Shown in pieces: positions 30,056 through 43,214 of a stretch of 64,000 nt of DNA. The notes beneath the pieces were generated by a model. The model had not been told where the DNA came from. It worked only from the letters and a program-made list of their open reading frames with translations, and made no database searches. The stretch covers positions 310,001 through 374,000 of the forward strand of contig NZ_AP024525.1 in the NCBI RefSeq assembly GCF_020886775.1, in the 5' to 3' direction. The translations under genes and the position numbers were made by a program. The DNA is from Sinomonas cyclohexanicum. Lineage in GTDB: Bacteria; Actinomycetota; Actinomycetes; Actinomycetales; Micrococcaceae. Numbering within the stretch: position 1 is the stretch's first letter; each line of letters begins with the position of its first letter.

Positions 30056-31114
30056 TCAGGGCAGGCGGAGTCGGCCGTCGACCTCGACCGCGAGGCCGTC
30101 GGCGAGCAGCCCGGTGAGGGCCCGTTCGAGCTGGTCCGGGCCCGTGCCGAGCGCGTGGAGGCGGGCGAGGGCTGCACCGACCGGGCTGGCAGCCTCCGCG
30201 AAATGTTGAGTTGAGCAGGGTCCGGAGGCCTCAGACCCTGCTGAACCCAACATTTCGGAGTCGGGGAGCTCCGGCGCGCGGACGAAAAGCTCCCGCACCA
30301 CCGGGTGCTCTGCGGCCCGCAGCACCGCCATGATCGCGCCGCGGACCTGCCGGTCGGTGCCGTGCCACGCCTGCCCCCGGGGAGTATAGGTGGGCGGCGG
30401 CTCACCGGCGGCCAGCCACGCGCACTCTGCGGCCACCGGGCACACGTCGCACCGGGGCGACCGTGCCGTGCACACGAGCGCCCCGAGCTCCATCGCCGCC
30501 GCGTTCCACGCGACGGACTCGGCACGATGCGCTGGCAGGAGCGCGGCGGCGCGGCGCAGCTCGGCGGCAGTCAGCGAGGGCGCGGGCAGGGCCTCCCCGG
30601 AGACCAGACGCGCGTGGACCCGGCGGATGTTCGTGTCCACCACCACGGACCTGCGGCCGAACGCGAAGGCCGCCACCGCAGCCGCCGTGTATGAGCCGAC
30701 TCCGGGAAGCGCGAGCAGTTCCTCCTCGGTGTCAGGCAGCTCGCCGCCATGCTCGGCCGTGATCACGGTTGCCGCCGCATGCAGCCGCAGCGCCCGGCGC
30801 GGGTAGCCCAGGCGGCCCCAGGCCCGCACGGCCTCCCCGGCGGGCTCGGCCGCGAGATCGGCCGGCCGCGGCCACCGCTCCATCCACTCGCGCCACACCG
30901 GGAGTACGCGCACCACGGGGGTCTGCTGGAGCATGACCTCGCTCACGAGCACGCCCCACGGCGTCCGATCCGAGGCCCTCCACGGCAGGTCGCGCGCCTC
31001 GCGCCCGAACCAGTCCGCGAGCGCCGCGTGGAGGGCGCCCAGACGCTCTGCTTCCGGGGCAGGGCCCGGCGTTTCAGGCCGCGCACGACGGCGGGGCGCA
31101 GCTGTTGCGGTCAC
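30056..31114 (-). CDS. mutY: A/G-specific adenine glycosylase
   Basis: A 352-residue base-excision repair enzyme that removes A opposite 8-oxoG. The catalytic Glu is in SEVMLQQTPV, the helix-hairpin-helix is LPGVGSYTAAAVAAFAFG followed by the catalytic Asp in VVVDTNIRRVH, and the 4Fe-4S ligands follow C-x6-C-x2-C-x5-C (CTARSPRCDVCPVAAEC). A near-perfect inverted repeat encodes about residues 286-305 (within SEMLGSAGSEASGPCSTQH) between the catalytic core and the C-terminal segment; this stretch is not family-like. A copy of the dispersed 11-mer lies in the low-complexity N-terminus. GGAGAGG precedes the GTG start. Confidence 0.94.
   Translation of the reverse strand: MTATAAPRRRARPETPGPAPEAERLGALHAALADWFGREARDLPWRASDRTPWGVLVSEVMLQQTPVVRVLPVWREWMERWPRPADLAAEPAGEAVRAWGRLGYPRRALRLHAAATVITAEHGGELPDTEEELLALPGVGSYTAAAVAAFAFGRRSVVVDTNIRRVHARLVSGEALPAPSLTAAELRRAAALLPAHRAESVAWNAAAMELGALVCTARSPRCDVCPVAAECAWLAAGEPPPTYTPRGQAWHGTDRQVRGAIMAVLRAAEHPVVRELFVRAPELPDSEMLGSAGSEASGPCSTQHFAEAASPVGAALARLHALGTGPDQLERALTGLLADGLAVEVDGRLRLP
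30199..30257. repeat. 24-bp inverted repeat inside mutY
   Basis: The arms 30199-30222 and 30234-30257 are complementary at 22 of 24 positions, with an 11-base loop (CGGAGGCCTCA). The outer ten bases (CGAAATGTTG) and the inner nine (AGCAGGGTC) of the left arm match the right arm exactly. The frame is open through it. Confidence 0.95.
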
Positions 31115-43138: not shown

Positions 43139-43214
43139 GGGCCTCTAGCTCAGTTGGTAGAGCAGCGGACTTTTAATCCGCGGGTCGTGGGTTCGAAACC
43201 CACGGGGCCCACCA
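43139..43214 (+). tRNA. tRNA-Lys (TTT)
   Basis: A 76-base cloverleaf with encoded CCA: acceptor GGGCCTC/GGGGCCC, D-arm GCTC/GAGC, anticodon stem GCGGA/TCCGC with loop CTTTTAA (anticodon TTT), and T-arm GTGGG TTCGAAA CCCAC. No mismatch except one G-U in the acceptor. It decodes AAA and AAG. Reversed-strand frames over tRNAs like this often give spurious proteins. Confidence 0.98.

Follow-up and report, generated by a model that had tools for sequence, protein, structure and literature searches.

Dispersed palindromes of Sinomonas, one of them inside mutY, and their probable dependence on a palindrome-flanked nuclease gene

The palindrome lying in frame within the mutY gene of Sinomonas cyclohexanicum is one copy of a dispersed family of REP-like palindromes. 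Upkeep and dispersal of this family are probably (at a rough probability of 0.7) the work of a restriction-fold nuclease, in which case the copy in mutY would be a tolerated insertion. The candidate enzyme, P0001, is a protein of 322 aa whose gene (G000:C1:3780173-3781138, where G000 is the S. cyclohexanicum genome; L009:2174-3142) is bracketed by two copies of the palindrome, 1.09 kb apart. Relatives of this gene are repeatedly flanked by palindrome pairs of their own, and each palindrome type tends to be dispersed where its gene is found.

The mutY copy lies in a window of 64,000 nt, this being the whole stretch of DNA analysed. Its host is a minus-strand open reading frame of 352 aa (30056-31114), recognised by the Pfam domains HhH-GPD, HHH and EndIII_4Fe-2S, and by solved MutY structures that match residues 29-237 (best E 4.2e-44). 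The element spans 59 bp (30199-30257, with no strand assigned), as located by the repeat search, BLAST, a covariance model and folding; the covariance-model match covers G000:C1:340193-340261. The left arm, CGAAATGTTGAGTTGAGCAGGGTC (30199-30222, from the repeat search and an 18-copy alignment), and the right arm (30234-30257, from codon phase and consensus) are each 24 nt long, pair at 22/24 positions (92% complementary) and enclose a loop of 11 nt (30223-30233, from the repeat search), exactly as a preliminary description had proposed. With 24-nt arms and loops of 5-15 nt, no better palindrome occurs in the window, and the best palindromes in 20 hexamer-block shuffles of the window reached only 18-19 pairs. 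The same description expected strong folding of the transcript and a position in frame with mutY, and both expectations were borne out: as RNA in the mutY sense, the element folds at -43.9 kcal/mol (z -8.05; equalled in 0/200 shuffles), and it encodes residues 286-306, SEMLGSAGSEASGPCSTQHFA, C-terminal to the conserved part of MutY. No Rfam family matched the palindrome. The window's single match at Rfam gathering scores is a tRNA gene (43139-43211, plus strand, 71.7 bits).

An alignment of Micrococcaceae MutY, the comparison proposed for this segment, comprised 30 loci, namely the S. cyclohexanicum protein and 29 of 57 relatives, with L052 contributing only a fragment. The palindrome-coded segment corresponds to a variable linker near the C-terminus, and most of the relatives in the alignment lack it, including G004, G013, G008 and G003 in the same genus; a conserved, non-palindromic segment shared by most relatives was not seen. 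An alignable, decayed segment is present in the MutY of G014 and G002, and perhaps, in a more distant form, in that of G012, with the arms in G014 and G002 pairing at 13/22 positions, against 20/22 in the copy described here. Such decay with the reading frame kept fits tolerance of the element rather than its use as a linker. In the right arm of the S. cyclohexanicum copy, TCA stands where the family consensus, in the same phase, gives the stop codon TGA. The insertion may have survived by keeping the reading frame, by carrying TCA rather than TGA, and by falling beyond the iron-sulfur motif, where the linker varies; the mutY copy is best read as a passive insertion that was tolerated with its in-phase stop lost.

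Further copies, for which a genome search had been suggested, were found. BLAST of the genome with a 101-bp query returned 31 rows, representing 18 places, while the covariance model (R1) returned 44 rows, representing 22 places in the chromosome. The palindrome is a dispersed element of ~55-65 bp with arms of ~20-30 bp. Among the 18 aligned copies, both sides have changed at 6/24 pairs; this count was equalled in 90/500 shuffles, and the covariation score of 0.102 (shuffled mean 0.069) was reached in 0/500. Model matches were obtained in 12/15 genomes of the genus, or 11/15 once three places read as a different hairpin (two of them in G009, the third in G010) are dropped. These (G009:C1:3050031 and 3389467, and G010:C3:148651) are long hairpins with TTGCGCCGTCA arms that match the model weakly and probably form a separate repeat family. 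As R1 was trained on copies from the S. cyclohexanicum genome, match counts in other genomes are biased low. The exact core, GAGCAGGGT-N-ACCCTGCTC, is found in 8/395 genomes of the family, six from Sinomonas and two from the genus containing a 'Renibacterium sp.' MAG, the outer arms differing in the latter two. Separately, a perfect palindrome, TTGAGCAGGGTTTATTGCAATAAACCCTGCTCAA, in the Chloroflexi contigs L091, L092, L098 (Thermoflexus MAG) and L084 (Roseiflexaceae MAG) has the 11-bp core of the Sinomonas element, perhaps by chance. A parS-like fixed, origin-proximal function was considered from the positions of the copies, and informally set aside.

At the P0001 gene, the 3' copy of the palindrome supplies the final codons together with the stop (CGC GAA ATG TTG GCC TGA). 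The orthologous gene and its palindrome pair are present together in G000, G013, G007, G011 and G003, and also in G010, where the palindrome has diverged; the hairpin script alone detects both flanks in 4/6 of these orthologues. The whole unit is absent from the fadR-dcd interval of seven other genomes (G012, G014, G002, G006, G001, G005 and G009). In two more, G008 (L207) and G004 (L208), this interval has no nuclease gene and holds a different repeat, made of GGCGAGAAGTGCACTTCTCGCC-like units. Compared by blastn with G000, identity is 69-75% for the gene, 83-88% for the downstream sequence and 81-85% for the upstream sequence (73% upstream in G011). P0001 is under purifying selection, with dN (0.077) well below dS (0.503) relative to the S. 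cellulolyticus orthologue. By eye, a target-site duplication was not discernible in either the fadR-dcd gap or the mutY linker.

Queried alone, P0001 matched nothing in Pfam, NCBIfam or, by phmmer, the PDB, and it matches no known transposase. Across 27 aligned homologues, PADLOC AbiEi models match the N-terminus of all 27 (E up to 0.1), and at the same threshold there are weak matches to Pfam MTES_1575 in 20/27 (best 9.7e-6) and DUF559 in 12/27 (best 3.1e-4). A profile of these homologues found an 'endonuclease-like protein' as its best match among solved structures (E 0.048), and E207, Y252, G254, H257, D266 and R269 are invariant in the alignment, with D240 nearly so. An AlphaFold2 model of the S. 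cellulolyticus orthologue, made without an alignment, had a pLDDT of 31.8 and was discarded. MTES_1575 is classed as a Vsr-fold REase in the available part of PMC3710099. Hence these weak matches and invariant residues lead to the prediction that P0001 combines an AbiEi-like N-terminus with a C-terminal PD-(D/E)XK nuclease of the Vsr/MTES_1575 type, and the MTES_1575/DUF559 Vsr-fold nucleases and AbiEi-type proteins are the probable family of the driver gene. No relative was confirmed in viral contigs; among phage records, one unannotated record stood at 31.5% identity.

Flanking by palindromes extends to other members of this protein family. The flanks of 68 Micrococcaceae homologues were scanned, these being 30 loci and 38 further rows, with weaker rows left out. 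Hairpins occurred on both sides of the gene in 28/68, and formed a matching pair in 25/68, one of which is doubtful (L299, a tandem repeat). Control windows shifted 700 bp outward gave 0/67 for two-sided hairpins and matching pairs alike, and the flanks of mutY 0/30. With narrower windows and a stricter match, 17 of the first 30 homologues had two-sided hairpins and 13 had matching ones. The palindrome sequence varies from homologue to homologue. The script found no matching pair at 43/68 homologues, including the three other retrieved homologues of the S. cyclohexanicum genome itself (L274, L292 and L295), and the link between palindrome and gene is therefore not obligate. Two loci stand apart: the homologue L200 (G032:C3:811782) has two strong flanking palindromes that are unlike each other, and is possibly a hybrid of two types, while L325 (G022:C15:498480 and 499603) consists of two palindromes separated by 1.12 kb, between which no homologue could be detected, and is possibly a dead or replaced unit.

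In a sample across the phylum, 38/149 genomes had a homologue match (E up to 1e-15), and 28/30 loci could be scanned. Hairpins were two-sided in 8/28 and matching in 6/28, with none at the other 22, most of them distant homologues. Two of the six matching pairs are known Micrococcaceae, three come from the genus g56, of the same class, and one is repeat-rich; two additional g56 loci have matching pairs as well. Four plasmid homologues were also available, of which one from Arthrobacter and one from Tsukamurella have a matching pair, and two from Arthrobacter a one-sided hairpin.

In sequence dialect, a genome's dispersed copies tend to resemble the palindrome pair that flanks its own gene. They mostly carry GCACGGT in G013, GCGGGT with AATTGTCGG arms in G003, and GCAGGGT in G000, in each case agreeing with the palindrome pair at that genome's gene. 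Across six genomes, the genome's own gene-flanking pair was the best of the six for 39/56 dispersed copies (one G010 hairpin being doubtful), a total reached in 0/2000 label shuffles. By genome means, the own pair was best in four of the six; on average, dispersed copies from G011 come slightly closer to the pairs of G000 and G007 than to that of G011 itself, and those from G010 are closer to the G003 pair. Where copies occupy orthologous sites, 12/18 are nearer to other copies in the same genome than to the orthologous copy, and 6/18 are not.

These dialects bear on the possibility that P0001 is a nuclease of the defence or restriction type, with the palindromes as operators and as titrating or self-marking sites that spread by ordinary recombination. 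The AbiEi-like N-terminus found by PADLOC throughout the alignment would suit such an enzyme, and palindromes so close to both ends of the gene could be operators. However, an operator role needs neither a second copy over the stop codon nor tens of copies near unrelated genes, and the lineage-specific dialects, like the insertions within mutY and pxpBC, suggest mobility. Hence this alternative is considered unlikely, if still deserving of attention.

Spread by the nuclease agrees with the distribution of the palindromes, types of which are correlated with genomes or genera carrying the cognate gene. A close P0001 orthologue is present in 6/15 Sinomonas genomes, in which the model gives 44 (G000), 16 (G013), 22 (G007), 22 (G011), 7 (G010) and 16 (G003) match rows, against 8, 2, 0, 0, 6, 4, 4, 6 and 0 in the nine genomes without it (rank test p 0.001, relatedness ignored). 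The ordering is imperfect, as G010, which has the gene and a diverged type, has fewer rows (7) than the gene-less G002 (8). Arms pair at a mean of 18.95/22 positions over 65 sites in genomes with the gene, and 16.25/22 over 12 sites in those without (p 4e-4, relatedness ignored). As the genomes are related, these tests are not independent. Nor does the present-day occurrence of copies coincide strictly with that of the gene, since a few copies remain in five Sinomonas without a close orthologue (G002, G004, G008, G012 and G014), and one site of another type, that of L182, lies in G174, whose retrieved homologues carry different palindromes.

Palindromes from other homologues follow the same tendency. 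The L182 type gives 80 rows in G160, 47 in G061 and two in G174, and none in 15 others (3/18 genomes), and homologues with L182-type flanks are present in both G160 and G061. Dispersed copies of the L187 palindrome occur in 4/21 genomes, all of one genus, and were not found in the 17 others; for three of the four carriers (G032, G081 and G124), a homologue with L187-type flanks was verified. For a second Sinomonas homologue, the L286-type palindrome was predicted beforehand to be dispersed, within the genus, in G003, G007 and G010 alone; these gave 23, 34 and 33 rows, compared with 0/12 in the other Sinomonas, none of which has that palindrome at its retrieved homologues (Fisher p 0.002, relatedness ignored). 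Overall, the L286 type occurs in 5/19 genomes, the other two being G022, named as a possible carrier (16 rows), and G032, which was not predicted (8 rows) and in which a homologue on contig C4 was then found to be flanked by the L286 type. The outer arm ACTTGGGCGCAG is common to the dispersed copies of G130 and G146 and to the palindromes flanking homologues there (L271 and L202).

Such correlations also weigh against a REP or MITE moved by an ordinary transposase, with the nuclease gene as a captured passenger. The general look of the elements is REP-like, and sites near gene 3' ends recall those of REPs in the available text of PMC3733652; yet the Y1 enzyme (Y1_Tnp; Transposase_17, PF01797), the only transposase searched for, was found in 0/15 genomes of the genus (E up to 0.001), the same search being positive in 5/14 control genomes. 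Capture of a passenger is improbable to the point of being a minor contender, because one protein family is repeatedly bracketed by differing palindromes, and the presence of a palindrome type agrees with that of its gene.

The sites occupied by the 22 copies were described using ORF heuristics, with Pfam for 30 adjacent ORFs at 14 loci, the scan not extending to the ORFs beside four copies (in L170-L172). By these heuristics, convergent genes flank ~10/22 copies; others come after the end of a gene, and some overlap the ends of ORFs with uncertain starts or stops. Conserved coding regions hold 2/22, one in mutY and one in a fused, PxpB-PxpC-type carboxyltransferase, where the copy is in frame in the linker between the CT_C_D and CT_A_B domains. 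This second insertion is at an identical place in five Sinomonas species (L017 = G000:C1:3735004, L132, L152, L157 and L167), with copies that vary between species in sequence and decay. The preliminary description had likened the mutY palindrome to the palindromic elements of Rickettsia, and the likeness stands as regards in-frame insertion in protein genes (PMC10969869, as far as its available text goes). It does not extend to size or coding share, as the same text gives Rickettsia elements as ~150 bp, with nearly half of those of R. conorii in ORFs, against ~60 bp and 2/22 here; nor to the tie with a palindrome-flanked nuclease gene, which distinguishes the present family. That the copies are bidirectional terminators or RNA-stability hairpins under selection, similar through concerted evolution of useful sites, is very improbable, as strong stems and convergent neighbours would suit this role, but copies lie within mutY and pxpBC, relatives have empty sites, the inspected copies have no evident T-run, and the palindrome types are linked to one gene family.

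If a restriction-fold nuclease does maintain and spread these palindromes, the process would most likely operate as follows. Firstly, the P0001 protein would recognise the palindrome of its own type, perhaps when this is folded into a cruciform or hairpin. Secondly, it would cut at or near that palindrome. Thirdly, repair templated by another palindrome would both generate new copies and homogenise old ones, in a homing-like gene conversion, a mechanism suggested by the class to which the enzyme probably belongs and by the way the copies evolve in concert. Fourthly, the gene with its flanking palindromes would constitute the autonomous unit, and the solo palindromes its non-autonomous form. 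The Vsr-like (EDxHD) homing endonucleases are an example of a Vsr-type nuclease able to drive the copying of DNA via repair; what they insert into an intact target is an entire intron or intein, whereas the dispersed unit here is a short palindrome.

The REP/RAYT systems, in which REP/BIME repeats go with a REP-associated tyrosine transposase (RAYT), are the known case where palindromic repeats have an enzyme of their own, and the spread of REPs is still debated. In the available text of PMC2817692 and PMC3733652 there are several parallels: as in 'REPtrons', the gene is flanked by two palindromes of a dispersed family, an arrangement that holds for part of the P0001 protein family; enzyme and palindrome co-vary, with the presence of the gene tracking copy number; the gene evolves fast; and copies lie near gene 3' ends, giving stop codons, and are sometimes intragenic. 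By contrast, RAYT is a Y1/HUH transposase, whereas the enzyme here is predicted to be a PD-(D/E)XK nuclease with an AbiEi-like N-terminus, and REPs are 20-40 bp with a GTAG-like head, whereas these palindromes are ~60 bp with no GTAG seen in the consensus and 80 copies inspected. The hosts also differ, being Actinomycetota rather than the gammaproteobacteria to which the RAYT-REP sets of the 2010 survey were confined, and copies number tens rather than the usual >100 of REPs, again according to the available portions of those articles (PMC2817692, PMC3733652). The system was therefore not filed as REP/RAYT, as the defining Y1 enzyme was not found; it appears to work like one.

A link between palindromes and this nuclease was not found in the literature searched, which was partly available and left out most subscription papers. 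In its accessible text, PMC3710099 does not tie MTES_1575, DUF559 or AbiEi-type proteins to dispersed palindromes, with no words beginning 'palindrom', and that of RepRanger (PMC12306157) tabulates one Arthrobacter, with no words beginning 'RAYT', 'nuclease' or 'DUF559'. More tentatively, with odds falling somewhat short of even, the palindromes might represent a whole class, within Actinomycetota, of selfish or domesticated REP-like elements, of an origin independent of RAYT, built on a Vsr-type PD-(D/E)XK nuclease instead of a transposase, which would cut its own palindrome, copy and homogenise it through break repair, and leave short in-frame peptides in proteins such as MutY.

The gene, its cognate palindrome and the non-cognate ones are each defined and specific to a lineage, which would make this an easy test system. 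If the proposal is true, an unrelated class of enzyme with the architecture of REP/RAYT would show convergence, and a role would be gained by a group of actinobacterial AbiEi/DUF559-like genes whose present annotation is hypothetical or limited to a domain. Some of the AbiEi/DUF559-like genes that are counted as defence hits may instead belong to selfish elements.
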